Virus record (IMG/VR): IMGVR_UViG_3300024999_000152
Location: 1-49,018 of that record
Strand: one strand, 5' to 3'
Source: a virus
DNA: 49,018 bases
Below, piece after piece: positions 3,382 through 34,710 of the stretch. The notes beneath the pieces were generated by a model that saw nothing but the letters and a program-made list of their open reading frames with translations, had not been told where the DNA came from and did not search any database. Numbering within the stretch: position 1 is the first letter of the stretch; the number at the start of each line of letters is the position of its first letter. Made by a program: the position numbers and the translations under genes.

Positions 3382-5343
3382 TTATTTCCTTCCAATCATT
3401 TCATTGAATTGTGCTTCACTTATAATTTCAACCCCTAGATCATGGGCTTTTTTATTTTTTCCAGATGTAGATGTCACATCATTATTCAAAAGATAAGAAG
3501 TATTTTTGCTTACTGAACCCGATAAGATACCACCTAGAGAAGTAATTAATTCTCCCACTTCATCCCTATTTTTAAACGTAGTAACTTTACCCGTAACAAC
3601 AAATGTTTTTCCTTCAAGACTTGTCATTCCTGTTTCCTCCTTCTTTTCTTCTTTTTTAATCTCAATCCAATTTAATAAATTCATAACTTGTAGACAATTA
3701 TTTTCATCCTTAAAATAATCATAAACATTTTCTGCTGTAATTTGTCCAAAATCTTCAATTTGAAGTAATTCGTTTATGTTTGCATTCATGATTTTCAGAA
3801 TGTCATTATTAAAATGTTTACATAAATTCTTCGATCCTCCTTTTCCAATTTGAGGAATGCCAATTCCATAAATTAACTTGTGCAATTCTGTCTTCTTAGA
3901 TTTTTCTATTGCCTTTTCAAGTCTATTATAAGATTTCTTACCGAATCCATCCATATTAATAATTAGATTCTTAAAATTTTCTAATGAATAAATATCTGAA
4001 AAATTTCTCAACCAATCATTACTAATGAATTTTTCCAAAGTTGCTTCAGACAAATTTTCAATATCTAAAGCATTTTTACTACATAGATGAACAAAACGAT
4101 TAACTAACTTTGATGAACAATCTTCATTGTCACAGAACAAAAAGTTAGAAATTTTTGGTGCTCTAATTGCAATATTACCACCACATGAAGGACATTCCAT
4201 ATCAATCTCGTATGAACTAGAACGTGTTAGGTTTTCTTCAATTTGTGGAATGATAGAATTGGCCCTATATACAGTAATAACATCTCCTATGCCTAATTCT
4301 AGTGCTTTAAAAATGTCATAATTGTGCAAGCTTGCTCTTGATATTTTTGCTCCATCTATATCCACTTCATCAAACAATCCAATTAATGAAACAATTCCTG
4401 TACGAGTAGTATTTAATTCTACACCTCTGAAAATTGTCTCATAAGAATCATCATTATGCTTTATTGCAAATAATGCCTTACTGTGATGACCTGTGACCCC
4501 TTGTGCTTTGCCATAAGCAATATCATTATACTCAACAATTAATCCATCTGTAAGAAATGGTAGTGATTCTATTTTTGTTTTATAAAAATCTACTGCAATT
4601 TGTATTTCCTTTTTAGTAATTAAAGTATTTTCAACTACAGTAAAACCTAATGATTTTAAAAACACAAATTGATTCATCTTATGTGCAAACCATTCATCGC
4701 ATTTTACAATGCCAAAAGCAATAAAGATTAAATTTCTCTTCTTAGTAATTGTAGCATCTAATTGTCTGACTGATCCTGCTGCCAAGTTACGAGGACTAGA
4801 ATATGCGTCCTCTCCTTTAGTAATTAATTCAGCATTGATTCTCTCAAACTCTTTAAATTCAATTAAGCCTTCACCACGAATTTCTAAATATCCATTATAA
4901 TCAATTGTAAGTGGAACATTGGTGAAAGTTTTAACCGTATGAGTTACATCTTCTCCAAAATCCCCTCCACCTCTGGTTATTGCTTGTTGTAGTTTTCCCT
5001 CATTATATCGAAGAACTAATGTCAAACCATCTAATTTCCAAGATAATACACAATCTTGATTTCCCATAAATTTTATAACATCATTAATATCTTTGGATTT
5101 TTCGGCAGACAACATTGATTCAGTATGTTGTACTTTTTTTAATGAATCTAAAATTGCTCCCTGAACTTTTTGAGTTGGTGATGAGGATAATATGTAGTTT
5201 GTTTTCAATTCTAAGGTTGTTAACTCATCGTACATTGAGTCGTAAATTTTGTCTGACATGATTGGATTATCTTTGACATAGTAAGCGTCACAGGCTGCAT
5301 TTAGTTCTTTAACGAGTTCTTTAATTCTGTTTATATTTTCCAT
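3382..5343 (-). CDS. ligA: NAD+-dependent DNA ligase LigA
   Basis: 653 residues, full length for bacterial LigA (about 670). Joins nicks using NAD+, releasing AMP and NMN. Domains in order: NAD-binding Ia region (1-65, with YYVKDNPIMSD), adenylation domain with KLDG (nucleophile K103) and a downstream GEGL/RGEG motif, OB fold, Cys4 zinc finger (CPSCGG then CDNEDC, near residues 375-400), tandem helix-hairpin-helix region (about 430-560) and a C-terminal BRCT domain (about 575-650, LEGKTFVVTGKV). All catalytic elements are intact, so it should be active. Many phages carry ATP ligases; a complete NAD-type enzyme is typical of very large or bacterially derived phage genomes. Its own promoter lies just upstream, and DUF7352-like gene follows 3 bases after the stop. 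Confidence 0.98.
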   Translation of the reverse strand: MENINRIKELVKELNAACDAYYVKDNPIMSDKIYDSMYDELTTLELKTNYILSSSPTQKVQGAILDSLKKVQHTESMLSAEKSKDINDVIKFMGNQDCVLSWKLDGLTLVLRYNEGKLQQAITRGGGDFGEDVTHTVKTFTNVPLTIDYNGYLEIRGEGLIEFKEFERINAELITKGEDAYSSPRNLAAGSVRQLDATITKKRNLIFIAFGIVKCDEWFAHKMNQFVFLKSLGFTVVENTLITKKEIQIAVDFYKTKIESLPFLTDGLIVEYNDIAYGKAQGVTGHHSKALFAIKHNDDSYETIFRGVELNTTRTGIVSLIGLFDEVDIDGAKISRASLHNYDIFKALELGIGDVITVYRANSIIPQIEENLTRSSSYEIDMECPSCGGNIAIRAPKISNFLFCDNEDCSSKLVNRFVHLCSKNALDIENLSEATLEKFISNDWLRNFSDIYSLENFKNLIINMDGFGKKSYNRLEKAIEKSKKTELHKLIYGIGIPQIGKGGSKNLCKHFNNDILKIMNANINELLQIEDFGQITAENVYDYFKDENNCLQVMNLLNWIEIKKEEKKEETGMTSLEGKTFVVTGKVTTFKNRDEVGELITSLGGILSGSVSKNTSYLLNNDVTSTSGKNKKAHDLGVEIISEAQFNEMIGRK

Positions 5344-13600: not shown

Positions 13601-13999
13601 TTACACCCCAACTTTACGCATCTCTCTGTAATCAGTAATAGCACTTTTAGTTCCATTAAAATTAAACATAGGAGAATTAATTGTTCTTTCCCTAATCTCT
13701 ATGTGTTTAAACGGACAAGATTTGATATTGCCCATCTTATTCTCTTTTCTTAAAACTTCTAACATGTCAATGTTTTCGATATGGAAGGTAATTACAAATT
13801 TTATTTTCATTCCCTTATCTTGAAGAGACTTCAATTTTATTTCAGCATCTAATTTATCCGTATATGTATAGTATCCATTTGTAAGTTGCTCAGAATAAGA
13901 ATAGATATTCTTTCCACTTTGTTTATCATATGAAACTGAATTAGGCCCAACATAATTTCCTTCATTGTCTTTAAGTGTAAATACTTTTAATTCTGTCAT
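13601..13999 (-). CDS. hypothetical protein (132 aa)
   Basis: Start set at 13999 (MTELKVFTLKD), 8 bases after AGGAG, not at the longer GTG/ATG frame. Beta-rich first half (GPNSVSYDKQSGKNIY), then a basic C-terminal half. Not recognised. Preceded by a weak promoter at 14094-14122. Confidence 0.6.
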   Translation of the reverse strand: MTELKVFTLKDNEGNYVGPNSVSYDKQSGKNIYSYSEQLTNGYYTYTDKLDAEIKLKSLQDKGMKIKFVITFHIENIDMLEVLRKENKMGNIKSCPFKHIEIRERTINSPMFNFNGTKSAITDYREMRKVGV

Positions 14000-14093
14000 T
14001 CCATCTTCTCCTCTATAATTTTTTAGTAAAACCAAACGTTTGATCCTCTCTAAGCTTGTTTTGGGAACATGTATTCGCCCTTTGCTTAATTAC

Positions 14094-14222: not shown

Positions 14223-14256
14223 AGTCTATAGTCCCATTAATTTGGGACTATAGACT
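14223..14256 (-). terminator. 13-bp perfect hairpin over the stop of the MrpR-like gene
   Basis: AGTCTATAGTCCC and GGGACTATAGACT pair perfectly, with an 8-base loop that contains the TAA stop. No T-run follows, so it may be a factor-assisted terminator, an mRNA-stabilising end or a binding site. Confidence 0.55.
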
Positions 14257-15238
14257 GTGTTTGTTTATATGTTTCATACATTTCTTTTAATCCTTGCCAA
14301 CCCCTTTCATCTAATTGTAAATCTCTAAATAATTGTCTAAAATTTTCTGATGTCAATTCTCCAACTTCATTTTCTTTCTTTAAGCATCTGTCCAGTAATC
14401 CAGATTGAAATACTAAGGTAGGATTTAAGAATCTAATTCCAGTATATTGTCTAAAGTTCTTAAACCTTGCACCAATATTTCCTACAGTTATCCTTTCTTC
14501 AGTATTATTCTTCCTTCCGATTGTACGTAAAATATATGGAGTATCTTTTGTTGGTAAAACGGCAAATCTACCATCATCTAAACCATTTAATTTATGATAA
14601 GTGTCTTCCAAACAAGCCATTTGTAAAATCTCCATAGTTCTAGGATCTACAGTTATCGGCCTTGATTGAGGGAACAAGATTTCACCGTAAGGATCTCTAG
14701 TAACAATAATTGTATTTGATTCAGGAATAAGATCGGTCTTTTTAATATTTCTTAATTCTTCAAAAGTATGATCTTTAATTGGTCTTCCCCTTACAGTTTC
14801 AAATAATAATGCCACTACTGACTTATCAGCGTAATTATAAAGCATATCACAATAATCATACATTTGTTCTCTAGTAATATAAGAAAGTTTTTGAGCTACT
14901 TGATGAATATATTTCGGCAAATCTTCTTTTTTGTCAACTAGTTTAAGAACATTAATGGAACTATAGTGATTAAATAAACACCAATTTAAATATTGCATAA
15001 TAATTGTATAAGCAACGCCTAATGATTTAATACTTTTCTTTTTCATTCCAATTAGTAATTCTTTTACCTCTTCGTAACTAAACTTGCACAGGTCTTTGTT
15101 TTTCTCATGTTCGAACCTGCTAACGTTTTTTAAAATTGAGGTATTTGTCATCCGAGTGCTTTCATTTGGATATTTTTCATCAAGAAAACGATTCTTTTGC
15201 TCTTCATTAAATAATGTTCTTTCAATAGTAAATGACAT
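14237..15238 (-). CDS. mrpR: MrpR/YopR-like DNA-binding protein (tyrosine-recombinase fold, non-catalytic)
   Basis: 333 residues; SPbeta MrpR (YopR) has about 325. Residues about 50-110 form a SAM-like/core-binding region, 120-320 a recombinase-type domain. An Arg is kept in the box I position (ETVRGRPIKDHTFEEL), but the HxxR box and the C-terminal Tyr of active integrases are absent: that area reads NPTLVFQSGLLDRCLK. This is what is known for MrpR, a lysogeny repressor that keeps the fold but not recombination. The start shares one base with the upstream stop (TAATG) and AAGGAGG lies 8 bases before, so it is coupled to the DGQHR gene, just as yopR follows yopQ. I infer a master repressor; a degenerate integrase is the alternative. 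Confidence 0.75.
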   Translation of the reverse strand: MSFTIERTLFNEEQKNRFLDEKYPNESTRMTNTSILKNVSRFEHEKNKDLCKFSYEEVKELLIGMKKKSIKSLGVAYTIIMQYLNWCLFNHYSSINVLKLVDKKEDLPKYIHQVAQKLSYITREQMYDYCDMLYNYADKSVVALLFETVRGRPIKDHTFEELRNIKKTDLIPESNTIIVTRDPYGEILFPQSRPITVDPRTMEILQMACLEDTYHKLNGLDDGRFAVLPTKDTPYILRTIGRKNNTEERITVGNIGARFKNFRQYTGIRFLNPTLVFQSGLLDRCLKKENEVGELTSENFRQLFRDLQLDERGWQGLKEMYETYKQTQSIVPN

Positions 15239-16593
15239 TATGATACCTCCTTTTCATATTGAGAAACAATATCTTTGAAATATTCATAAATCTTTTTAAA
15301 TGTTGGTAAATTGACGTTATTTTCAATGCCAATTTTCTTCCAAATCTTATTTGATTTATTGAAGTCTAAAGATTTTAAAACTTTTACAAATTCAGGTTTC
15401 CAATCGTCACCATGTTTATCTTTAAGCATTTTACCTAAAATAGCATACCCCATAAACATATTATTATGTGACATATACGTTAATTCTCTAGTATTTGATA
15501 ATTCTGCTTTGAATTTAGAATGATGTAGACCAATAACATTATTAAATATTTCAATAAGTTCATTCTCAACTTCTTCTGTTCTAATAGCTGGCTCTTCTTT
15601 AAGATCATAAATAAATTCAATTGTTTTTGACAATGTATCAAATGTCATCAATTTGTTCTCGATTTTTAGTTCTTTCTCATTCAATGCTATACGATTAAAC
15701 ATGTCGTTTTTACTTGGATGATCATTTATGGCTTTAGCTACTTCCATGTTCGGATTGGCTGTATCTTTAAAATCAACCCATTCTGTTTGAATTGGGGCAG
15801 CCAAACTTTCTTGTTTTATTATTTGATTTGCGCGTTCCTCCGTGACATGATGAACATATATTGAAGTAACTCTATCAATTTCCGGTTTAAGTTCAACTGC
15901 TTTTACCATACCACAGGTACGATTTGCACCATCAATTATATCAACAAATGTAGTAGTATTATCTGGCTCAATTAATAAAGTTCTGGTTTTAGCATCATAT
16001 TTAAATTTCTCTTGTCCATTTATCTTTCTAATATTCCATATAATAGCGTTTGGGCAAAAAGTATTATCTAACATTGATGACGTAATTTCTGTAACTTTTT
16101 TCCCACCAACATTAATCGATTCAATAATCTTGTCGCCACTTCTTCTTTTTAACAATTGTCTTTGAGTATTTGGGTTATAAGTTAATAAACCATTTCCCAT
16201 ATAAACCCCGACATTTTGATAAGTGTCTTTAGTACATAAAAATTGAGTTGTGCTAATTTGATCAACATTATGAAGTAGAATATATTTAACTTTTTCTTTT
16301 TCTAACTTTTGGTATGTTTCAGCAAAAGACAATTCAATTTCAGTAAAATATTCATCTGGATTTATTTCTGGTTTGCAAGTATATCCATAGAGATACTTTG
16401 TAAATAGGCATAATTCTGTTTCTGACACATAAACCAAAGGAATGGCTTTAGTAAATATACCAGTTGTTCTACCTCTTGGAATACCTCTTTCTAGCAATTT
16501 AATTATTACTTGCTCCATAACTTTGTTGTCATTTGAATAATCTTCAATTACCAAATCAAGAACATCCTCAAGAACTTGACGGTCTTTTTTCAT
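15238..16593 (-). CDS. DGQHR/DndB-type protein, YopQ-like (451 aa)
   Basis: Start at 16593 (MKKDRQVLED), 7 bases after AAAGGAGG. The signature region reads FVDIIDGANRTCGMV, a variant of the DGQHR motif of DndB-type ParB/sulfiredoxin-like proteins that regulate DNA phosphorothioation loci. It lacks neighbours dndA/C/D/E, so sulfur modification is unlikely. Size (451 versus about 460) and position directly before an MrpR-like gene resemble SPbeta YopQ, whose role in lysogeny control is not settled. Expressed from two strong promoters and under a 20-bp palindrome in its leader. I infer a regulatory partner of the repressor. Confidence 0.7.
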   Translation of the reverse strand: MKKDRQVLEDVLDLVIEDYSNDNKVMEQVIIKLLERGIPRGRTTGIFTKAIPLVYVSETELCLFTKYLYGYTCKPEINPDEYFTEIELSFAETYQKLEKEKVKYILLHNVDQISTTQFLCTKDTYQNVGVYMGNGLLTYNPNTQRQLLKRRSGDKIIESINVGGKKVTEITSSMLDNTFCPNAIIWNIRKINGQEKFKYDAKTRTLLIEPDNTTTFVDIIDGANRTCGMVKAVELKPEIDRVTSIYVHHVTEERANQIIKQESLAAPIQTEWVDFKDTANPNMEVAKAINDHPSKNDMFNRIALNEKELKIENKLMTFDTLSKTIEFIYDLKEEPAIRTEEVENELIEIFNNVIGLHHSKFKAELSNTRELTYMSHNNMFMGYAILGKMLKDKHGDDWKPEFVKVLKSLDFNKSNKIWKKIGIENNVNLPTFKKIYEYFKDIVSQYEKEVS

Positions 16594-16615
16594 AATAATT
16601 CCTCCTTTGACTATC

Positions 16616-16635
16616 AGCAACATATATATGTTGCT
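16616..16635. promoter_or_regulatory. 20-bp perfect palindrome, probable operator
   Basis: AGCAACATATATATGTTGCT is its own reverse complement. It lies 23 bases before the DGQHR gene start and about 30 bases downstream of promoter P2, in the transcribed leader, where a bound dimer would block elongation or initiation. Confidence 0.7.
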
Positions 16636-16662
16636 ATGTATTGGTTAGTAATACGCAATGCT

Positions 16663-16692
16663 ATTATAATATATAATATGCCGATACGTCAA
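16663..16692 (-). promoter_or_regulatory. promoter P2 of the DGQHR-MrpR operon
   Basis: TTGACG (16687-16692), 18-base spacer, TATAAT (16663-16668). The element GCATT recurs beside both promoters (near 16656 as GCAATGC-like, 16698, 16743), a possible second operator type. Confidence 0.7.
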
Positions 16693-16736
16693 GGAGAATG
16701 CTTGATTTCTTTTAATTATTTATGTTTCTATTTGTA

Positions 16737-16766
16737 ATTATAGCATTCACTATTTTTGTTTGTCAA
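16737..16766 (-). promoter_or_regulatory. promoter P1 of the DGQHR-MrpR operon
   Basis: TTGACA (16761-16766), 18-base spacer ending in TGC, perfect TATAAT (16737-16742): close to the consensus and therefore probably strong. GAATGC at this -10 and GCATTC at 16696 form an inverted pair between P1 and P2. Confidence 0.75.
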
Positions 16767-16785
16767 GTATTTTTATTTATTATAT

Positions 16786-17562
16786 TTAAAATAAAATCGG
16801 CTCATTATTATTTTTATTAATCCTTCTTACTACTCTGGGAACGTTTATGTATTTTACATCATTTAATTCTGGTAATAAAGTTCTCCAAGAATTTAAATTT
16901 TTGATCTGTCTGACGGCGTCCTTTGATACATTATGCTTTGATGCTAAATCATTTACCTTCTCTCCTTGTGATAACCTTATTTTTATGTCTCTAGCAATAT
17001 CCTCTGACATATTATACGATGTCTCTTCTTTAAGTAAATCATTTAATACTGGTAATAAGTGTTTCCACGATGTAAGATATTTAATGTGGTGAACTATCTT
17101 TTTATTAACACCAAATTCTTCTACTATATCTATTATTTTATCGCCGCTTGCTAACCTTATTTTTATTTCTTTTGCTAAATTTTCAGTGATTTTAGCATTC
17201 GAATTACCTTCTCCTTTTCTTTTTTCACTCATCTTTTGTTTATCTTCTTCTGAATAAGAGTATCCAGATCTGCCACCACCTCCTTCCGTCATATTATATC
17301 CGTTTGCATTTTTTAATCCTATATATGTATTGTAATATTTAATCCAATATTTTTCTTTTTCATTTAACTCATTAATATCTTCCGTATTATCTATTACTTC
17401 CCAAATAATATTATCCCATCCATATTTCCTAATTGCTCTATGAATAATATTATTTTTATTTTTATAGGAATTTCTATGACCTGTTTTTCTATGTTCTAAA
17501 TCATGTATGGTTTGTCCAATGTATGCTTTACCATTTGGAAAATCAATCTTATATATTATCAA
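16786..17562 (-). CDS. GIY-YIG homing endonuclease with NUMOD3 and two HTH repeats (258 aa)
   Basis: Residues 1-90 form a GIY-YIG nuclease: IYKIDFPNGKAYIGQT, Arg in LEHRKTGHR, Glu in EKYWIKYY. Residues 95-120 (SGYSYSEEDKQKMSEKR) are a NUMOD3 DNA-binding element. Two tandem units of about 46 residues follow, each KEIKIRL/RDIKIRL, an HTH, then SWKHLLP/SWRTLLP, presumably recognising DNA. Such free-standing enzymes cut alleles lacking them and spread. TTG start with a weak binding site. It sits between agrB and the repressor operon, where it may have replaced a downstream gene. Confidence 0.9.
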   Translation of the reverse strand: MIIYKIDFPNGKAYIGQTIHDLEHRKTGHRNSYKNKNNIIHRAIRKYGWDNIIWEVIDNTEDINELNEKEKYWIKYYNTYIGLKNANGYNMTEGGGGRSGYSYSEEDKQKMSEKRKGEGNSNAKITENLAKEIKIRLASGDKIIDIVEEFGVNKKIVHHIKYLTSWKHLLPVLNDLLKEETSYNMSEDIARDIKIRLSQGEKVNDLASKHNVSKDAVRQIKNLNSWRTLLPELNDVKYINVPRVVRRINKNNNEPILF

Positions 17563-17662
17563 TAAATAACCACTCTATATTTTATATTTCTTACATATGA
17601 TATAATAAAATACCCCATCTCTTCTTTATTTTATGAAGTTATGTTTAAATTTAAGATACTCA

Positions 17663-17670
17663 CCTCCTTT
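17663..17670 (-). promoter_or_regulatory. orphan ribosome binding site after agrB
   Basis: AAAGGAGG stands 13 bases after the agrB stop, as strong as any in the window, yet the following frame (GTG, 10 codons) closes at once and no ATG follows before the GIY-YIG gene. It may mark a gene lost when the endonuclease arrived. Confidence 0.45.
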
Positions 17671-17682
17671 CTATTATAAAAT

Positions 17683-18375
17683 TTATTGATCTAATTTATC
17701 GTAGACGAAACGTCCTAATTTGCTACAACTAAATAATTCCAACAATAATCCAAAACAACTTGATACTACAATTATTTTTATATCAAAAAAGGAAAAGATT
17801 ATCATTAATATTACCCATATTAAGATATAATACAATGACAATCTTTTAAATTTTGATCTTTTTAAACAGTCTGTAATGCGTTTATTTTCAGTATCTCTTG
17901 GAACATATCGATAAATTATATATAGTGCCGTTAAGACACATAAGAACAACAGAGAATAGATATTAGTTTGCGACCAATACTGAAATGTATATTTTTCAAT
18001 TAATGCTATTCCAAGGAACTGAATTAAAGAAAATATTACACATTTAACATATGAACTAAAATGTGCTCCCCCTGCTATTGATCTTAAAGACATAAAAGTT
18101 AAAACTACTACAATAACTTGCCAAAAAACTCCTAAAATTAAAGATAAAATAATTAATGATAAACCCTTAAATACTGCTCCAACAGGAACCATGAGTGCAA
18201 GATTATATACACCTATAAGTTCTTCGGTGGTTTTAATTTTTTTTATATCAAATTTATTAGATAATTGAGGGAATAATCCTGTAACCCATCCCCAAGCATA
18301 TTCAATTTGATCTAACGGCACTTTCTTTACCATTTTATGAGCTAAATTATTTGATATAATTTGAATTAAATTCAT
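17683..18375 (-). CDS. agrB: AgrB-family pro-peptide endopeptidase
   Basis: 230-residue polytopic membrane protein (about six spans). The catalytic signature is intact: RSIAGGAHFSSYVKC, with His105 and Cys112 spaced seven apart as in S. aureus AgrB (H77/C84). AgrB removes the AgrD C-terminal tail and closes the thiolactone or lactone ring at the membrane. Two copies of AAAGGAGTTTAA precede the ATG in tandem. It is co-transcribed with the HTH-MazF gene 26 bases upstream, an association I do not know from described agr loci. The matching pro-peptide gene lies upstream at 19361-19480. Confidence 0.92.
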   Translation of the reverse strand: MNLIQIISNNLAHKMVKKVPLDQIEYAWGWVTGLFPQLSNKFDIKKIKTTEELIGVYNLALMVPVGAVFKGLSLIILSLILGVFWQVIVVVLTFMSLRSIAGGAHFSSYVKCVIFSLIQFLGIALIEKYTFQYWSQTNIYSLLFLCVLTALYIIYRYVPRDTENKRITDCLKRSKFKRLSLYYILIWVILMIIFSFFDIKIIVVSSCFGLLLELFSCSKLGRFVYDKLDQ

Positions 18376-18401
18376 TTAAACTCCTTTAAACTCCTTTCAA
18401 T

Positions 18402-19190
18402 TTAGGCAAAAGCAACTTGCCTCCCTGTGTTATAATTATTTTGATATTGAAATGTTCTTTGCGATCCTCTGTTTAAATTAATTAAAGCTTCAATAGCAAC
18501 TTTTTCTGGAACATTTAAGTCAATTACTCCATCTGCTTTAGCTACAGCAACAGAAATACGTAATAGCAATTCTGGAGAACATTGTGCTATCTTTTCTACT
18601 ACTCCTGAACCAGATAATAATCTTCTTTTACTAATTGTATCTTCTAGTTCACAACAAATAATAGAATCACATCTCAAACCAGGATATTCTTTACTGCTAA
18701 TTTCTATATGCGTAGGCATTTTTGCCTTACTGCGAGAAGTGATTGTGAGGACTTTAGTATTACTGCTTCGTGCATTTCCTATAGGGTTCTGGATAATGCA
18801 AACAGGGCGATGCCCCACTACCTCTGAATCAATTCCTCTGTCGGAAAAATTACAAAAATAGATACCACCTCTTTGAATTTGAATATTTTTTATTTGTTCT
18901 AAATCATTATTGGTATAATTTGAAAATCCACACGCCAACGTTAAATCTTTAAATGATACCCTGTTTTGAGAATTATCAGAAACAACTTTAAGAAATGTTA
19001 TATCTGGGTATGTAGGAATTTTAGCTTTAATTACACCCTCCATATAATCCCCACTAACCTTACAATCTGCTGCAAAATTATCTATTGATCTATTCCCTTT
19101 TGCAAGCATAACGTAATTTGCCAATTTCTTAAAATCCTTCATTGTATTTTCCTCAGTATTAGATTTTCTAGTAATTAATTTGTTAAACAT
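18402..19190 (-). CDS. HTH-MazF/PemK fusion protein (262 aa)
   Basis: Start at 19190 (MFNKLITRK), 9 bases after AAAGGATG. Residues about 17-95 resemble an XRE-type DNA-binding domain (FKKLANYVMLAKGNRSI, FAADCKVSGDYME). From about residue 105 a complete MazF/PemK fold follows: RGGIYFCNFSD, GHRPVCIIQN (catalytic Arg), VLTITSRSKAKMPTHIEI (catalytic Thr) and IICCELEDTISK. MazF cuts single-stranded RNA at short motifs. Both catalytic residues are kept, so it could be an active RNase; no mazE lies beside it, and the HTH may provide autoregulation at the dyad in its promoter. It heads the agrB transcript. Alternatively it is purely a regulator that borrowed the fold. Confidence 0.85.
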   Translation of the reverse strand: MFNKLITRKSNTEENTMKDFKKLANYVMLAKGNRSIDNFAADCKVSGDYMEGVIKAKIPTYPDITFLKVVSDNSQNRVSFKDLTLACGFSNYTNNDLEQIKNIQIQRGGIYFCNFSDRGIDSEVVGHRPVCIIQNPIGNARSSNTKVLTITSRSKAKMPTHIEISSKEYPGLRCDSIICCELEDTISKRRLLSGSGVVEKIAQCSPELLLRISVAVAKADGVIDLNVPEKVAIEALINLNRGSQRTFQYQNNYNTGRQVAFA

Positions 19191-19213
19191 AATAATACAC
19201 ATCCTTTTTATTT

Positions 19214-19269
19214 TTATAAGATAATATACTTCAATGTCGTATATTTAATAATATAATTATATCTTATAA
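19214..19269. repeat. 10-bp perfect dyad overlapping the HTH-MazF promoter
   Basis: TTATAAGATA (19214-19223) and TATCTTATAA (19260-19269) are exact reverse complements 36 bases apart; the right arm overlaps the -10 box. Layout resembles the dyad at the ligA promoter, though the sequences differ. Confidence 0.55.
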
Positions 19270-19285
19270 TGGATGCGTATGTCAA
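19256..19285 (-). promoter_or_regulatory. promoter of the HTH-MazF / agrB operon
   Basis: TTGACA (19280-19285), 18-base spacer, TATAAT (19256-19261), about 65 bases before the start codon. Confidence 0.75.
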
Positions 19286-19320
19286 CATATATTTGATCTT
19301 TTTTATCATTATTTTATGGT

Positions 19321-19348
19321 TATAGGGAAGACCGAAGCCTTCCCTATA
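19321..19348 (-). terminator. UUCG-capped hairpin after the AgrD gene
   Basis: On the minus strand TATAGGGAAGGC, loop TTCG, GTCTTCCCTATA: a 12-bp stem with one G-T pair, 13 bases after the pro-peptide stop. The T-run is missing, so it may cap or stabilise the agrD message as much as end it. Confidence 0.65.
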
Positions 19349-19360
19349 TGTAATATGTGC

Positions 19361-19480
19361 TTACTCGAAGCATTTTAGGGTTTCAGGTTGATATGTCCAC
19401 ATTGCGGAAGCTAAACATAAGGAGCATACTGTAGCAATTGTGATAAGACATCCTGCAAGAATAGTATATTTGTTTTTCAT
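19361..19480 (-). CDS. agrD: AgrD-like cyclic peptide precursor (39 aa)
   Basis: Amphipathic N-terminal helix (MKNKYTILAGCLITIATVCS), then LCLASAMWTYQPETLKCFE. The AMWTYQPE segment matches cyclic-lactone autoinducer precursors of Clostridia and Bacilli, which carry Cys or Ser, an aromatic ring residue, then YQP or HQP and an acidic tail. Ser25 is at the usual Cys position, predicting a lactone ring S25-A-M-W-T-Y30; Cys22 is an alternative ring residue. The ATG shares one base with the stop of the AgrC-like gene (TAATG) and AAAGGAGG lies in that gene's last codons. Too short for standard gene callers. Processing by the AgrB encoded 1 kb downstream is inferred. Confidence 0.8.
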   Translation of the reverse strand: MKNKYTILAGCLITIATVCSLCLASAMWTYQPETLKCFE

Positions 19481-20310
19481 TAAAATTCACCTCCTTTATT
19501 GTCATTTTCTACATCATCCATTACGACATCTTGTATAGCAAGATTTTCGTATGTCTGGCGTATTCTTTTTTCTACTTTTAGAATATAATTAACAATTAAT
19601 AATATGAACGTTATAGTAATCGTCGGAATAATAAACATCATAACTACTATAATTAATTGTTCAAAAAACGACAAATTTATTAAAATTAAATCTATTCCTA
19701 TAAGTTTAATTAAGTAAATCATTGTAATCATTATGCCTATTAATAAACTAAACATTGATCTTTTTAAGAAACTATTTTTTAGTATTATATCAAATAACTT
19801 AATTTTTACATCGTCGCTCTTTTTTACTAGTAAATATATCAATATAGAATATTCTATTACTCTTGCTGGCAATGCACATAAAAAATTTAAAATAAAATGT
19901 TCGTTTATGTATAAGATATTTGTTTTTGTGAGTGATAATATCAATGGACAATAGCATTCTAATATTGAAATAATGGAAATCCCTAATATTGTATAAAATA
20001 ATGCCTTAAAATATTTAATTTTTTCTTGAAGTAAATTATTATTTTTAATAACAACCAAGGTTAATAAATATAATACTAGTATACCAATTATTTGGATAAG
20101 AGATTTTGAAATATTTGTTAATCTTGCAAAACTTACTATAAAAGACATTCCGATTGCTGGTAAAGCGACCCATCTTATATTATCTTTCCACATTCTGAGA
20201 TCTAATAAATCATCTCTACCTATACCTATTAATACTATTGCTACTACAAAAAGTTCTTCCGGTAAACTCACAAAAAACATGTTTAACAAGGCATTAAATA
20301 TACTTTGCAT
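19480..20310 (-). CDS. AgrC-like seven-span membrane receptor without kinase domain (276 aa)
   Basis: About seven hydrophobic segments (roughly residues 15-33, 46-64, 68-88, 102-126, 140-162, 186-213, 216-243), then a short charged tail of about 33 residues (KVEKRIRQTYENL...). Topology, size and position directly before agrD fit the sensor half of an AgrC histidine kinase, but there is no His-box, N-box or GHKL region and no trace of one downstream. It may bind the peptide and signal through the tail, act as a decoy or transporter, or be another membrane family. It has its own strong promoter. Confidence 0.6.
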   Translation of the reverse strand: MQSIFNALLNMFFVSLPEELFVVAIVLIGIGRDDLLDLRMWKDNIRWVALPAIGMSFIVSFARLTNISKSLIQIIGILVLYLLTLVVIKNNNLLQEKIKYFKALFYTILGISIISILECYCPLILSLTKTNILYINEHFILNFLCALPARVIEYSILIYLLVKKSDDVKIKLFDIILKNSFLKRSMFSLLIGIMITMIYLIKLIGIDLILINLSFFEQLIIVVMMFIIPTITITFILLIVNYILKVEKRIRQTYENLAIQDVVMDDVENDNKGGEF

Positions 20311-20350
20311 ATGTATCTACTCCCTATCTCTTATTATTTATCTTAGGATA

Positions 20351-20379
20351 ATTATACCAATACAAAGCTTATAAGTCAA
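20351..20379 (-). promoter_or_regulatory. promoter of the AgrC-like / agrD operon
   Basis: TTGACT (20374-20379), 17-base spacer, perfect TATAAT (20351-20356), about 40 bases before the start. GGGAG follows at a good distance from the ATG. Confidence 0.75.
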
Positions 20380-20388
20380 GAAATAATT

Positions 20389-20952
20389 TTATATTTTACT
20401 TATTATATGTATTTGATTAGACGATTTTATTGAATTGTAAATAATTATAAATACAAACGATCTAAATATTAAATCTCCTGGTGACATACAACACCATCCG
20501 AAATCCCACACATCACATAAAGGTATCATTTTTGTAAATTCATTTCCCATTATATGAAAGTCTCCATATTTTAACGCTTCAATAAACATATCATGTTTCG
20601 CATATCCAGTTGCCCACGAATTCGAAAAAAATACAGGCATCTTACCAAAATTGGCATTTATTGCTATTGTATTTAACGCACTACCTAACCATACAAGGGG
20701 TATTGAACAGAAGAAAATTTTCATTATATTATAGTGTACTGACAAAATTAAAAAACAAAATAAATAAGTTCCTTTAAAAATATTAGCGTATTTGACTAAA
20801 GAATAATCTCCCTGCCATATCATAGACTCAAGATAAACATATAATAAAACCATAAATATGACAGGGTAAATATTCCAATGACGTAATATTGGCAATAGTT
20901 TATATTTATTTATTTTGGCCCATGCAAAGGCAAAGCAAACTGTTTCGATCAT
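20389..20952 (-). CDS. DUF5317-like membrane protein (187 aa)
   Basis: Four to five membrane spans. The family pattern as I recall it is present: ALNTIAINANFGKMPVFF in the middle and CMSPGDLIFRSFVF near the end. DUF5317 proteins are of unknown function and, to my memory, are found next to agr-type genes in Clostridia, which fits here. AAAGGAG lies about 15 bases before the ATG, rather far, so the start may be slightly off. Confidence 0.65.
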   Translation of the reverse strand: MIETVCFAFAWAKINKYKLLPILRHWNIYPVIFMVLLYVYLESMIWQGDYSLVKYANIFKGTYLFCFLILSVHYNIMKIFFCSIPLVWLGSALNTIAINANFGKMPVFFSNSWATGYAKHDMFIEALKYGDFHIMGNEFTKMIPLCDVWDFGWCCMSPGDLIFRSFVFIIIYNSIKSSNQIHIISKI

Positions 20953-21012
20953 TTTATAATTATATCTCTCCTTTTTTAATTATAATTTATCTTGTGTAAT
21001 AAGTTATTTATA

Positions 21013-21399
21013 TCATTCCAAAGCAAACTGAATCTTAATTCCTTTTGAAATTCTCAACATAGTTTCTTCATTACAAAACGCAACTTGATTCATAATATCA
21101 CTCTTATTTACAGGAATTGTTTGCTCACAAAGTACAATACTGTCCTTTAAAAGCCCGCTATTTTTTCTTTCGACCAAAATATGAGTAGGTAATTTTTTCT
21201 TAGTAGTCGCTGAACTAAGAGGACATACGTGTAAAACTGGACTGAAATTATTACAGGAATTGTTCGATACCAAAACGCAAGGGCGTTGCTTTGACTGGAT
21301 CGACCCTCCAATATTAGGAAGATTTACAATGTAAATCCCACCTCTAATTAATTGTTGTGGTTGATTACTTTGTTGAACTTTATTTATTACATTTTGCAT
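21013..21399 (-). CDS. MazF/PemK-family endoribonuclease homologue (128 aa)
   Basis: After an 18-residue Gln/Asn-rich extension the sequence tracks B. subtilis MazF: RGGIYIVNLPNIGG, SKQRPCVLVSNN (catalytic Arg39), LSSATTKKKLPTHILV, SIVLCEQ and the C-terminal ISKGIKIQFAL. The catalytic Thr position holds Ser62, which may lower or retain activity. No mazE antitoxin precedes it. An 8-bp dyad overlaps its -35 region. Host MazF is the target through which SPbeta-type arbitrium acts in published work, so a phage-borne homologue next to a peptide-signalling locus is notable. Confidence 0.85.
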   Translation of the reverse strand: MQNVINKVQQSNQPQQLIRGGIYIVNLPNIGGSIQSKQRPCVLVSNNSCNNFSPVLHVCPLSSATTKKKLPTHILVERKNSGLLKDSIVLCEQTIPVNKSDIMNQVAFCNEETMLRISKGIKIQFALE

Positions 21400-21433: not shown

Positions 21434-21475
21434 ACTATATTATGCCACCAATTTTGTCCAATATACGTGGACAAA
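21434..21475 (-). promoter_or_regulatory. promoter with overlapping dyad before the MazF homologue
   Basis: TTGGAC (21456-21461), 16-base spacer, TATAGT (21434-21439). TTTGTCCA (21453-21460) and TGGACAAA (21468-21475) form a perfect 8-bp dyad with 7-base centre over the -35 box. Confidence 0.6.
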
Positions 21476-23548: not shown

Positions 23549-25252
23549 TTATCCCAATCTATAAACTTCTTTCTCATTAACCACAATAAACTTACTACCT
23601 TCTCTAATTAATTTAGATCCATCATTAACTACATCACAAGCAAAATCCTTATAGACATTCTTTTCAAACCCAAATCCTCTAATAACCTTATCACTAGGAC
23701 TAAAAATTATCCCACCACTAAAACACAAGTTGCCTAAATCAGTTTGATACCTAATTGAATCACTACTATAAATAACATTATTCTTATCAAAAATTAATGT
23801 CTTGAAGTTGCCTTTGTCATCTTCAATAATGAATAACCATCTCTTCTTAACATCATCAAAATGCATACCATAATTAATAATTTTATCATTGTCATTGATC
23901 TGATAATTGTAACCACTAATATTAACAATTTTGAATCCATCATAAATATTGCATACAAGATAATTATCCTTATCATGTACTTCAAAAAATGAGTTAAAAG
24001 ATGTTTTAGTTATTACTCTTAAAGAGTTTCCAATATACCCTACGGTTAATTCCATAAGATTACAACTTGAATTAATATAGTAAACAATATCATTCTTCAC
24101 GACAATATTACTCTTATTAATTTTTTCAAATATATACGTTCCTTTTTGATTACTAACTCCAATATCTAAATTTGAAACTGTAAAAGTAATATCTCCATCG
24201 TTAGAAAAGTAATATTTATTACTATTAATTAATTTCACTTTCTTTTTTGACCTGCTATGAACTATAAAGTCATTTTCATCAATAAATGTGTCAACACCTA
24301 AAACCATTTTTACACCATTTGAAGCAATTAAAATGATATATGGAATAGACCCATTACCAGTTACTTTAGTAGGAACTTGAACAATTACAGCATTGCCATC
24401 ACATATAGGGCAAGTTTTATATTTTCCATAATAATAATCTCCATGAATATTGCAAAGTTTTAAATTAGTAATAAAATCCGTTAAGTTTTGATCTATCAAA
24501 AACCTTTTACCTTGTTCAAAAATACTCCTCATATCTGTAAGTAATTTTGGAGACATGAATTCCCACTTATTAATATTCTTAGGTACAATAACTTTTGTAT
24601 TTTCTATGACAGATATACCCTTACTCATCCTTTGAATAATATCCATATCTGGATTCATTGTTCCTCCAAAGGGATGAAGTCTTGTCAACATCTTAAATAA
24701 CAACACAGCAAATGAAAACGAATCAGTCTCTTTAGTAAAATTACTGGAAACTAATTTAGGGTCTTTAAATGTTTCCATACAAACAGTACAATTAATATTG
24801 TCTATAGACCAACTATCTACATCAATAAAATATGGTTCAAAGTCTTTAGTAAATAATATATTGCTATCATTTAAGTCACTGATAAGAATGTTTTGAGTAT
24901 GTAGAATAGATAGTGTTTCTTTAATCCTTAATGCCAATTTACTAATATTTTGAATTGTAATATTGTTTACTTTTACATATTTCTTGTTTCCTAATTTCTT
25001 AACATCTTCACCTTCTGCTTTAGGCATGATATAACCAATGAATTTCTTCTGTGAATCATAAGCAATATCAATAGGTTTAATTATATTTGAAGGTAAAGAT
25101 TTGGTCATTAACAACTTAATCTTCTTTAATTTCTCTTGTTTATTGACGGAATCTTTATAAACTTTAAGAACATTATCTCCCAAATCATAAATAATTCCTT
25201 CTCCACCTTCTGCCAATGGAGTTTGCTTTAGAATTTTGGCACTTACATTCAT
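23549..25252 (-). CDS. Ser/Thr kinase of a TerY-phosphorylation triad (567 aa)
   Basis: Kinase domain 1-265: glycine loop LAEGGEGIIYDL (13-24), Lys30 in VLKVYK, catalytic ISDLNDSN (D126, N131) and metal Asp in FIDVDSW (144-146), the DVD form typical of this kinase family. Cys267, His270, Cys281 and Cys284 (CNIH...CPIC) form a zinc ribbon as in TerY-P kinases. Residues 295-567 are beta-rich repeats (propeller-like). With the vWA and PP2C genes just upstream it completes the triad described in Ter-linked stress systems. Substrate unknown; modulation of host or defence proteins is inference. Starts 12 bases after the phosphatase stop. Confidence 0.85.
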   Translation of the reverse strand: MNVSAKILKQTPLAEGGEGIIYDLGDNVLKVYKDSVNKQEKLKKIKLLMTKSLPSNIIKPIDIAYDSQKKFIGYIMPKAEGEDVKKLGNKKYVKVNNITIQNISKLALRIKETLSILHTQNILISDLNDSNILFTKDFEPYFIDVDSWSIDNINCTVCMETFKDPKLVSSNFTKETDSFSFAVLLFKMLTRLHPFGGTMNPDMDIIQRMSKGISVIENTKVIVPKNINKWEFMSPKLLTDMRSIFEQGKRFLIDQNLTDFITNLKLCNIHGDYYYGKYKTCPICDGNAVIVQVPTKVTGNGSIPYIILIASNGVKMVLGVDTFIDENDFIVHSRSKKKVKLINSNKYYFSNDGDITFTVSNLDIGVSNQKGTYIFEKINKSNIVVKNDIVYYINSSCNLMELTVGYIGNSLRVITKTSFNSFFEVHDKDNYLVCNIYDGFKIVNISGYNYQINDNDKIINYGMHFDDVKKRWLFIIEDDKGNFKTLIFDKNNVIYSSDSIRYQTDLGNLCFSGGIIFSPSDKVIRGFGFEKNVYKDFACDVVNDGSKLIREGSKFIVVNEKEVYRLG

Positions 25253-25263
25253 TTACTTTCACC

Positions 25264-25887
25264 TCAAATTACTATTGAAATATCATCCTTGAAATATTTA
25301 TGCTCACGGTTAATTAATCTTCTTATTGCAAATTCTTTTCTTCCTAATAATAATCTTTCAAACTCATCTTTAAATGGACTATTAAGAATGTATTCTAAGC
25401 CATCAGATGCCACTCCTACGGCCTTATATTCTTGTTTAGATAAGAAGTGACGCTTAATTTCAACACCGTCTTTATACTTAGATAAATGGTCTTGAGAAAC
25501 AAAATTATAAGCAAAATATTCAGGAGTATTACCTTCTCCAATTTTTTCATATTCAATGGAATCATCATGTTTTTGTTTGATTATGTATCCATCACCACAA
25601 ATATCAACTATGTATTCTTCATCAGTTTGTGAAACAAATAATACTGTAAATAACATATGGTCTCTTATATCCTCGTAATTAGGAAATATTTCAGATAATT
25701 TTTCAAAACATTCAATAGGATCTAATCCTTTTAAAAACATATGTGCAAATAATTTAGCACCAACTTCACTATGTTTACCTTCTGAGCAACCATCCATTAT
25801 ACATTTATGCTTGTCACTCTCAAAGCCAAAATCTTGACAATTCAATCCTTTTTCTAAATGAAGATATCCAATTTTATTAATAAACAT
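25264..25887 (-). CDS. PP2C-family phosphatase (207 aa)
   Basis: Compact PP2C with the metal-binding acids in place: NCQDFGF, IMDGCSEGKHSEVG, VGVASDGLEYI and a C-terminal KDDISIVI. It should remove phosphates placed by the adjacent kinase. AGGAGG is 5-6 bases before the ATG. It lies between vWA and kinase genes, the standard order of a TerY-P triad. Confidence 0.88.
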   Translation of the reverse strand: MFINKIGYLHLEKGLNCQDFGFESDKHKCIMDGCSEGKHSEVGAKLFAHMFLKGLDPIECFEKLSEIFPNYEDIRDHMLFTVLFVSQTDEEYIVDICGDGYIIKQKHDDSIEYEKIGEGNTPEYFAYNFVSQDHLSKYKDGVEIKRHFLSKQEYKAVGVASDGLEYILNSPFKDEFERLLLGRKEFAIRRLINREHKYFKDDISIVI

Positions 25888-27890: not shown

Positions 27891-28676
27891 TTACAAATAC
27901 TTCTCAATATAATCTCTATCCTGTGTAAAAATAGGAATATCCTCATCAACTACCCATCTACTACGCATAACTCCATCTTTATCATATTGTTCTTTAATAA
28001 TACACGCTCCACGTTTTTGATAAGTAGGCAAATCATTAAAATTGATTTCCTTCTCTTGAAATAACATTTCTTGAATTTGATTGCAGGTTTTATTTTGCAA
28101 TTGTTTATGACTAAAATTTGCCTGACCAACCATTTGAATAGCATTTCTGGTAGCGTCCTGTTGTCTCCAAATAAAAGCATTACACACTTCTTCTTTAGGA
28201 ATATTATATACTCTACTATCAAACATAGCAGTATTAATTCCTCTTAGGTATGAGTTAGTTATTTTAGTATTTTCTTCAGTGTCTTCATATTCATCTATCC
28301 ATTTGTCTAAATTGGTAACAAAACTTTTATTAAAAATCATAGTTGCCATACTTGCAGACACAGAAACCATCTTTTGAATATTCTTATCGAACCATGCCTG
28401 AGTAGTAAGAGTATCGTAATCAGTAAGCAATAAAGTAATTTCATCACTTTGAGTATAGGCAATTTTACAACCCATTACATTCTTACAAATGTATTGTGCT
28501 GTATCCCACATAGTTTTCATTAATATCATATCAAATGGCCTCTGAAATCCTTTGGTAAACGTGTGGAATGCCTTACCATCTAGTCTAATCAATGTTGGTG
28601 TCCTTTTAGCCATGTATCGTCTTTCAATACCTTCATAGCCCTTCATACGGTCTCCAAGATCATCCTTACTCATCAT
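27891..28676 (-). CDS. Thg1-like 3'-5' RNA polymerase (261 aa)
   Basis: Start at 28676, 6 bases after AGGAGG. RYMAKRTPTLIRLDGKAFH with metal-binding Asp, and YTQSDEITLLLTDY with the second acidic pair, define the Thg1/Thg1-like family, whose polymerase fold adds nucleotides 3' to 5'. Bacterial and phage members usually repair 5'-truncated tRNAs rather than add G-1 to tRNA-His. It could mend tRNAs cleaved by host anticodon or acceptor nucleases, which I infer only from the family. Confidence 0.9.
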   Translation of the reverse strand: MMSKDDLGDRMKGYEGIERRYMAKRTPTLIRLDGKAFHTFTKGFQRPFDMILMKTMWDTAQYICKNVMGCKIAYTQSDEITLLLTDYDTLTTQAWFDKNIQKMVSVSASMATMIFNKSFVTNLDKWIDEYEDTEENTKITNSYLRGINTAMFDSRVYNIPKEEVCNAFIWRQQDATRNAIQMVGQANFSHKQLQNKTCNQIQEMLFQEKEINFNDLPTYQKRGACIIKEQYDKDGVMRSRWVVDEDIPIFTQDRDYIEKYL

Positions 28677-28710
28677 CAGTTTCCTCCTCAATTTCAATTA
28701 AGTACAATTT

Positions 28711-33649: not shown

Positions 33650-33829
33650 TTATTGTACTATAAATTCTATTTGACCAACTATACAATTTTCAAAAGTAGA
33701 TGTTAAGCATCCATCAGTTTCTTGTGTTAAACATCTTAATAACGAATGCACTTTTGGACACCCATATTCACTATTTTTTAATGCTTTTATTAACCATTTC
33801 TTTTCGCTCTCATTACATATAATTTTCAT
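33650..33829 (-). CDS. Cys-containing small protein coupled to uvsE (59 aa)
   Basis: Its ATG overlaps the uvsE stop (ATGA) and GGGAGG lies within the uvsE 3' end, so it is translated with uvsE. Five Cys (CNES, GCP, RCL, GCL, NCI). Unknown function. Confidence 0.6.
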   Translation of the reverse strand: MKIICNESEKKWLIKALKNSEYGCPKVHSLLRCLTQETDGCLTSTFENCIVGQIEFIVQ

Positions 33830-34710
33830 TTTATTACCTCCCTCCTATAATCCTCAATAAACTTATCAACAGCCAAATCCTTATCTTTTGCCTCAATCAT
33901 TATATCGAATTCTAATCCCTTATACTTCTCAAAGAAATCCTTACAATAATTAAAATCAATCATGTCAGAATGATTTCTGAACTCCTTAATACTCTTTGGT
34001 GAACTAAGATGAATCTTAGGCACATTACCAACCCCACAAGTGGCAAATATCGCTTCTAAATCCAATTCTATACCATCATTATTACAAACACGATGATGAT
34101 GATAATCAAACACAATTTTAGCCCCAGTTTCCTTGTGTATTTCCATTATATCACTAATCGTATAACTTTTGTCATCATTCTCCAATAGAATATGATTTCT
34201 TAAATCCAATGGCAAACTATTAAAGACACCAATAAATCTTTTCATTGCTTCCGGCTTATTACCATAAACTCCACCAACATGAATTATGATATTAAAATCG
34301 CTTAGGCCCATAGCATTAAGAATATCATAATGATAAATTAAATCCTTGATAGAATTATTTACAACATCTTGTTTTGGACTGTTTATACAACACATTTGAG
34401 ATGGATGCATTGATAATATCATATTATTATTTTTTGCTATATCACCAATCATTTGCAAATCAGATTGTATCCAAGCCATATAATTAATATCTTTCATAAT
34501 TTCATGAGTGGCAAATGGAACTAAATCTGAACTGATTCTGAATAATTTAATTCCTTCTGAAATGCAATGTTGGATTGTACGCTCAGTTTCTTTAATATTG
34601 TGAGCAATGGCTTGTTTTAATCTGTATTCACTGAATGATGATAGACGGAATTTTTGGTACTTAGTGTTGCACTTTTTACTCATACAAGCGAATCCTACAT
34701 GCCTGATCAT
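33826..34710 (-). CDS. uvsE: UV DNA-damage endonuclease UvsE/UVDE
   Basis: 294 residues, a complete UVDE TIM barrel. Family signatures: HVGFACMSKKC, RISSDLVPFATH, LSMHPSQMCC, IIIHVGGVYGNK, ILLENDDKSY, IVFDYHHHR and KIHLSSPK supply the metal-binding His/Glu/Asp residues. It nicks DNA 5' of UV photoproducts, starting an excision pathway independent of UvrABC. In a phage it would repair packaged or replicating DNA. AGGAGG lies 8-9 bases before the ATG. Confidence 0.95.
   Translation of the reverse strand: MIRHVGFACMSKKCNTKYQKFRLSSFSEYRLKQAIAHNIKETERTIQHCISEGIKLFRISSDLVPFATHEIMKDINYMAWIQSDLQMIGDIAKNNNMILSMHPSQMCCINSPKQDVVNNSIKDLIYHYDILNAMGLSDFNIIIHVGGVYGNKPEAMKRFIGVFNSLPLDLRNHILLENDDKSYTISDIMEIHKETGAKIVFDYHHHRVCNNDGIELDLEAIFATCGVGNVPKIHLSSPKSIKEFRNHSDMIDFNYCKDFFEKYKGLEFDIMIEAKDKDLAVDKFIEDYRREVIK

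Follow-up and report, generated by a model that had tools for sequence, protein, structure and literature searches.

Gene content and recurrence of the block

IMG/VR virus record IMGVR_UViG_3300024999_000152 is a viral contig of 49,018 bases (hereafter the window, meaning this whole stretch) that carries, at positions 14237-21399, a block of genes in which agr-type peptide-signaling genes and MazF-family proteins lie upstream of a repressor pair of the SPbeta type. Every gene of the block is on the minus strand, and read 5' to 3' the order is MazF1, DUF5317, AgrC1, AgrD, HTH-MazF, AgrB, a GIY-YIG endonuclease, DGQHR and MrpR. A reading made earlier from the sequence alone had listed these genes for the same interval, and family profile matches bear that list out gene for gene, on the minus strand throughout; its order was correct but it left out the GIY-YIG homing endonuclease between AgrB and DGQHR.

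The block is found repeatedly among viral genomes. We scanned viral contigs with alignments of AgrB, HTH-MazF, the receptor, MrpR and DGQHR, followed by a profile tally for each locus, and found the cassette in 17 distinct viral loci including the window (20 IMG/VR records, four of which are near-copies of one another). The order kept in the relatives is MazF1, DUF5317, AgrC1, AgrD, HTH-MazF, AgrB, AgrC2, DGQHR and MrpR, where AgrC2 is a second kinase-less AgrC-like receptor that is absent in some. The same order in 17 distinct loci shows that the block is more than chance. Co-occurrence of these families across genomes had been set beforehand as a test of the sequence-only reading, and the agr-like block and the repressor pair, far from never co-occurring, stand together in 17 loci. 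Ratios of nonsynonymous to synonymous divergence (dN/dS) of 0.07-0.31 for the window genes compared with near relatives point to purifying selection, suggesting that selection maintains the genes, and among them the short AgrD and the receptor without a kinase. A search with the AgrB of the window found no relatives among named phages.

AgrD (19361..19480, minus strand) is a 39-amino-acid autoinducer precursor that begins at the AgrC1 stop codon, and an AgrD homolog is present in 17/17 loci. All 17 share a C-terminal pattern in which [YHFN]Q[PS] comes after a five-residue core, [S/C]xxxx, and one or more residues separate the core from QP/QS. The first residue of the core is Ser in 14/17 (SAMWT, SAFWT, SAMWS, SWLGA, SWFFA, SWLFT, SYFIS, SWAFS, SWLFS, SWFWL, SMVVW, SMFFS, SLMWL, SAFLW) and Cys in 3/17 (CLAAW, CFAAW, CRFWF), and the positions inside it are hypervariable. 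From the known processing of AgrD, five-membered lactones or thiolactones are predicted by analogy; the mature ring predicted for the window, S-A-M-W-T followed by YQP (19394..19408, minus strand), would close through Ser, not Cys, to give a lactone. AgrD also has a conserved Cys near its C-terminus (LKCFE, PKCLNK, PNCMK) in 16/17 loci, outside the predicted ring. AgrB (17683..18375, minus strand; PF04647, 1.8e-34) is a membrane cysteine protease/cyclase whose His/Cys pair, H105 and C112 in the window, is invariant in the 17 loci. A subgroup of four loci (L012, L035, L038 and L046) has a diverged AgrB upstream of DUF5317, with 20-24% identity to the AgrB of the window. DUF5317 itself (20389..20952, minus strand; PF17248, 7e-14) is a membrane protein that forms part of the cassette and is present in 15/17 loci.

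The AgrC2 place is occupied in the window by an intruder, the GIY-YIG homing endonuclease (16786..17562, minus strand; grpIintron_endo, 1.5e-20), and in L002 a 98-amino-acid remnant of AgrC2 is left. An Rfam search of the GIY-YIG region gave no match, so no intron was recognized there. Homing endonucleases differ among L007, L002, L003 and the window and occupy different joints, after MazF1 or after AgrB.

The arbitrium slot and the inheritance of the cassette

DGQHR (15238..16623, minus strand) is a DGQHR/DndB-like protein (phrog_5732, 1e-64; DndB/DGQHR-like family, 8e-11) that aligns with phi3T_96/YopQ at 23% identity over 397 residues (1e-16). MrpR (14237..15238, minus strand) resembles the master repressor MrpR (YopR), which has a tyrosine-recombinase fold (PF22822 (MrpR_N), 1.5e-18; phrog_5830; PF22823, 7e-5, under the cut-off), and aligns with phi3T_97/YopR, which is MrpR, at 27% identity over 296 residues (2e-26). 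The pair that had been read as YopQ-like and MrpR-like is therefore homologous to YopQ/YopR of phi3T. In SPbeta, MrpR acts as the master repressor (PMC10516654). The gene order in phi3T is aimR-aimP-aimX-92-93-94-yopP-yopQ-yopR, with Goe14 alike, and the agr cassette occupies the slot that aimR-aimP-aimX, the genes of the arbitrium system (a well-studied peptide language among SPbeta phages), hold in phi3T, upstream of the YopQ-MrpR pair. Compared with the yopMNOPQR operon of SPbeta, the block has a homologous DGQHR(YopQ)-MrpR pair in the same order; it differs in that no yopM/N/O/P-type genes were identified in it and in that the agr cassette takes the arbitrium position.

The two signaling systems exclude one another at this slot. 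Among loci from a DGQHR scan that had enough upstream DNA (in L112 and L113 the upstream sequence is short), either AimR or the agr cassette was present, rarely neither, as in the stretch seen of L114, and never both. AimR of phi3T was found in 0/20 agr-type records, with 4/4 arbitrium controls positive, and AgrB scored over the cut-off in 0/50 arbitrium-type and other records. In the MrpR and DGQHR trees, agr-type and arbitrium-type loci form two sister sets, which indicates that the mutual exclusion goes back to a single old split, a pattern compatible with replacement in either direction. The earlier proposal that agr stands in place of arbitrium thus holds for the shared slot and for mutual exclusion but not for replacement itself; judging from these sequences, the ancestral system could be either one, or both could have come in later.

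Mantel tests on identities between pairs of the 17 loci show common inheritance of AgrD, the receptor, HTH-MazF and AgrB (r = 0.72-0.87, p = 0.0005). The correlation is 0.81 for AgrD and AgrC1, 0.73 for AgrD and HTH-MazF, 0.74 for AgrC1 and HTH-MazF and 0.87 for AgrB and HTH-MazF (p = 0.0005 in every case), and AgrD and DUF5317 are correlated at 0.68 (p = 0.0005). DGQHR and MrpR are correlated at 0.98. The cassette compared with the repressor pair gives r of about 0.1 (HTH-MazF and DGQHR: r = 0.08, p = 0.15), MazF1 tracks neither, and omitting the window's two closest relatives has little effect on the results. These two separate inheritance blocks suggest that the cassette travels as a whole between repressor types while keeping its slot, and the co-inheritance of HTH-MazF suggests that this protein belongs to the signaling unit. 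Synonymous divergence (dS) between individual loci points the same way for receptor and signal. From the window to L002 it is 0.17 for DGQHR, 0.48 for HTH-MazF and 0.85 for AgrC1, and from the window to L003 it is 1.52, 0.90 and 0.30, respectively. AgrD follows AgrC1 in both comparisons, suggesting a joint exchange of receptor and signal, which is what a cognate pair should show.

The free exchange of MazF1 alleles, unlinked to the cassette, is what one would expect of a defense gene, and MazF has been described as limiting phage infection (PMC10769878). MazF1 and HTH-MazF might then serve in abortive infection or superinfection exclusion, with the lactone adjusting this defense to lysogen density, and would take no part in the decision of the phage itself. 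This exchangeable behavior is confined to MazF1 and is not seen in HTH-MazF, and the genes lie in the repressor operon region, in a slot shared with arbitrium, so we consider a purely defensive role unlikely.

A receptor without a kinase

AgrC1 (19480..20310, minus strand) is a protein of 276 amino acids that resembles the AgrC sensor, with about seven transmembrane helices and a conserved cytosolic tail of about 30 residues, QTYENLAIQDVVMDDVEN. Its AlphaFold model is helical throughout, from the roughly seven membrane helices to the tail (predicted local distance difference test score, pLDDT, of 79.8), and comparison of this predicted fold with the PDB gave no match. When the AgrC1 profile was compared by hhalign with the sensor domains of AgrB-adjacent AgrC kinases, the probability was 80% (E = 1.5e-5, 185 columns), and six other GHKL kinases used as controls gave at most 0.3%; the AgrC sensor profile was built on three sequences, two of which adjoin AgrB in their loci while the third is a near relative. 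The sequence-only reading of this protein as an AgrC-like receptor is thus right as to its homology with the AgrC sensor, but the kinase domain is absent, which changes the mechanism. Pfam searches identified no kinase domain in 24 phage receptors. Further, HATPase_c_5 (the AgrC-type ATPase) and LytTR (AgrA) were each found in 0/20 records, with control genomes positive for both. Phage-encoded AgrC-AgrA phosphotransfer is therefore excluded for these 20 records, which may be fragments.

Among receptors of one type, the tail has an identity of 0.60 compared with 0.39 for the body, and it is the better conserved part in 43/49 pairs, suggesting that the tail probably contacts something. The segment QTYENLAIQD of the tail resembles the MazF-binding helix of AimX (GYEEMAAIN) and of MazE (GYMEMAKIN), a likeness that prompted a mimicry test with a matrix made from MazE of other bacteria together with AimX/YosL. 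Scores of the tails did not exceed those of shuffled tails or of control C-termini (p mostly 0.05-0.9), and we rejected the tail as a mimic of MazE or AimX.

Receptors that lack a kinase would carry out no usual signaling, which is compatible with a role in host manipulation, whereby the phage lactone and a sink receptor jam or eavesdrop on the agr system of the host and the MazF proteins are unrelated passengers. In staphylococci, autoinducing peptides of one type inhibit receptors of another type, which also counts in favor of such a role. In addition, agr genes are known from the Clostridioides difficile phage phiCDHM1, as described in a review (PMC11945551). Against this, HTH-MazF tracks AgrD, AgrC1 and AgrB across loci and so does not behave as a passenger, the cassette lies upstream of the repressor pair even where the repressor types are very different, and a mere sink would not need a tail that is more conserved than the membrane part. 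Host manipulation is an improbable function for the cassette.

Some bacterial genomes have split AgrC operons (sensor, kinase, AgrB), and the receptor profile also matches their sensor half; in two of these genomes, G138 and G101, a sensor-only protein lies beside a separate kinase open reading frame (ORF) and AgrB. Bacterial agr operons at L193:35-1983 and L192:48-1834 consist of a sensor-only protein (163 or 156 amino acids), a kinase ORF (304 amino acids) and AgrB. It is possible that split-AgrC operons represent an intermediate towards kinase-less receptors. The existence of split systems also lends some support to the idea that the phage receptor partners a separate, host-encoded histidine kinase, with host AgrA-like regulation as the output. 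No such kinase or LytTR protein was found in the 20 records, however, and the co-inheritance of HTH-MazF would be left unexplained by a host-supplied kinase, which makes this route very unlikely.

Bacterial genomes also contain tandem kinase-less AgrC-like receptors (L157:8351-10438, genome G302) and a single one (L158:1089-2195, genome G475), directly followed by AgrD-type peptides (CFCFI-YQPKAPKCLK and SIWGF-YQPRTPKCLR) and with no kinase seen adjoining. The architecture of a kinase-less receptor with AgrD is therefore not restricted to phages. Across 399 genomes of the sampled phylum, the receptor profile found nothing close, except for the distant receptor pair in G302.

MazF proteins and a proposed circuit

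MazF1 (21013..21399, minus strand) is, by its sequence matches, a putative free-standing endoribonuclease of the MazF/PemK type (PemK, 1.9e-21; Staphylococcus aureus/Bacillus MazF, 7e-17). Its catalytic Arg and PTH motif are conserved in 15 loci, and the equivalent of Bacillus subtilis T48 is Ser/Thr. HTH-MazF (18402..19202, minus strand; PemK, 1.5e-16) consists of an N-terminal five-helix domain resembling a helix-turn-helix (HTH) and a C-terminal MazF domain, with a PemK match in all 17 members. The modeled C-terminal domain matches Bacillus MazF in Foldseek with a TM-score of 0.89-0.91 by target length, and the catalytic Arg and Thr/Ser positions are conserved with the exception of L012, where Arg is replaced by His. 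In the AlphaFold model, the five N-terminal helices are predicted to have the layout of an HTH repressor. The element thus appears to encode its own MazF-type effectors, as had been proposed, in the form of two proteins with intact catalytic positions in most relatives. When bacterial genomes were screened with HTH-MazF, the only match was a plain MazF in Paenibacillus. HTH-MazF (window 18402-18420) and most MazF1 proteins (relatives L005, L007, L012 and L017) share a VAYA/VAFA-like C-terminus that is not present in MazF1 of the window and is possibly a degradation or docking signal.

Both phage MazF proteins have the fold and catalytic positions of MazF in MazEF systems; the block differs from these in lacking MazE and in having one MazF fused to an HTH-like domain. 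No homologs of MazE, AimX or YosL were found in the agr-type records, and an ORF scan of agr-type loci revealed no convincing MazE/AimX motif. In phi3T, the activity of the host MazF promotes lysogeny and requires its RNase residue, and AimX inactivates MazF (PMC10769878).

Candidate regulatory elements lie in front of both MazF genes. HTH-MazF is preceded by a predicted sigma-A-type promoter (TTGACA...TATAAT; 19256..19285, minus strand), identified by pattern match in the window and present in 14/17 loci. An inverted repeat, TTATAAGATA / TATCTTATAA (19215..19269), covers its -10 region, as the best repeat does in the majority of loci; single scores are near the shuffled maximum, and its role as an operator for HTH-MazF is only suggestive. 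An RNA hairpin 3' of agrD (19322..19347, minus strand) is conserved in 17/17 loci, with compensatory changes in 5/8 predicted pairs. Since phi3T has a terminator between aimP and aimX that is under AimR control (PMC10769878), the agrD hairpin may deserve the same attention. A perfect inverted repeat, TTGTCCA-N7-TGGACAA (21454..21474), covers the -35 region of the MazF1 promoter and is a candidate operator. We rejected it as an operator repeated genome-wide: the window contains one good copy (a single exact match), so it is not an SPBRE-like element there.

Adjacent to the block, a conserved 144-amino-acid protein (13601..14035, minus strand) comes after MrpR in most window-type relatives and before DGQHR in L005. 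At 23549-25887 of the window a protein kinase (Pkinase, 1e-11) adjoins a PP2C phosphatase (1e-8), and the kinase is also upstream of the block in L005, with 88% identity. A large set of auxiliary genes, at 3382-5343, 27891-28697 and 33826-34710, encodes a NAD-dependent DNA ligase, a tRNA-His guanylyltransferase (Thg1) and the UV-damage endonuclease UvdE.

Taken together, the block is probably a phage-borne, kinase-independent agr-type circuit that controls an SPbeta-type repressor locus from the arbitrium slot. Because the signal cannot run through a phage-encoded AgrC-AgrA pair and HTH-MazF is co-inherited with the signaling genes, HTH-MazF is the best candidate for the output. In the circuit we propose, AgrB would trim AgrD to the five-residue Ser lactone (SAMWT in the window), which would be exported and accumulate as infected or lysogenic cells increase in number. 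Binding of the ring by AgrC1 would change the effect of the tail on HTH-MazF, through holding at the membrane or release. HTH-MazF would act as response regulator and RNase in one, its HTH domain acting on cassette DNA and its MazF domain cutting transcripts. The MrpR switch would thereby be tilted, and abundant peptide would most likely favor lysogeny, in keeping with the action of host MazF in phi3T arbitrium. More tentatively, we suggest that the seven-helix kinase-less receptor could pass the lactone signal through its tail directly to HTH-MazF, which would combine a transcription factor with a sequence-specific RNase, giving phages a means, parallel to arbitrium, of gauging one another's numbers and setting an MrpR-type lysogeny switch.

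Several points weigh against such a circuit. The contact between receptor tail and HTH-MazF is a conjecture, and the HTH domain is indicated by AlphaFold helices and one weak PHROG match to a transcriptional regulator, with no Pfam match. The exclusion of arbitrium goes back to one ancient split, not to repeated swaps, and may track host lineage. L048 (2536-5734), which belongs to the agr-type set, has MazF1-DGQHR-MrpR without an agr cassette in between, an arrangement that is either natural loss or the ancestral state. Finally, most of the contigs are fragments of metagenomic origin, and they come from few sampling sites.

The proposed circuit shares with arbitrium the slot upstream of YopQ-MrpR, a small phage-encoded peptide with type-specific variants, and the involvement of MazF, which in arbitrium is that of the host (PMC10769878). 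Whereas arbitrium uses a linear hexapeptide and the cytosolic AimR, the agr-type block would use a cyclic AgrD-type peptide and a membrane receptor; it has its own AgrB protease and phage-encoded MazF proteins, and no AimR, AimX or YosL homolog was found in it. With bacterial agr it has in common the AgrB His/Cys pair, the predicted five-residue ring of AgrD, the AgrC-type sensor domain and the joint swapping of receptor and peptide. It differs from agr in having neither a kinase domain nor AgrA, and in its candidate output HTH-MazF, its DUF5317 protein and, often, a second kinase-less receptor. Phage phiCDHM1 likewise carries agr homologs and no agrA; in the text consulted (review PMC11945551), no association with MrpR/YopQ or MazF is reported for it. 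In the open-access literature of PubMed Central, we found neither agr described in the arbitrium slot nor HTH-MazF described as an agr output. Phage agr genes as such are already known, and it is their presence in the arbitrium slot with a kinase-free receptor that appears to be new.

A route from a kinase-free receptor to HTH-MazF, if proven, would be categorically new. It would also constitute an agr circuit without the AgrC kinase and AgrA and would make signaling by kinase-less receptors testable. Five-residue rings can be synthesized, so the prediction can be checked once a host is available. If the proposed circuit is correct, a sister lineage of phages would have, in its homologous slot, a second peptide language that is cyclized, processed by AgrB and sensed at the membrane, and this slot would be a plug-in site for communication with MazF as a recurring output.

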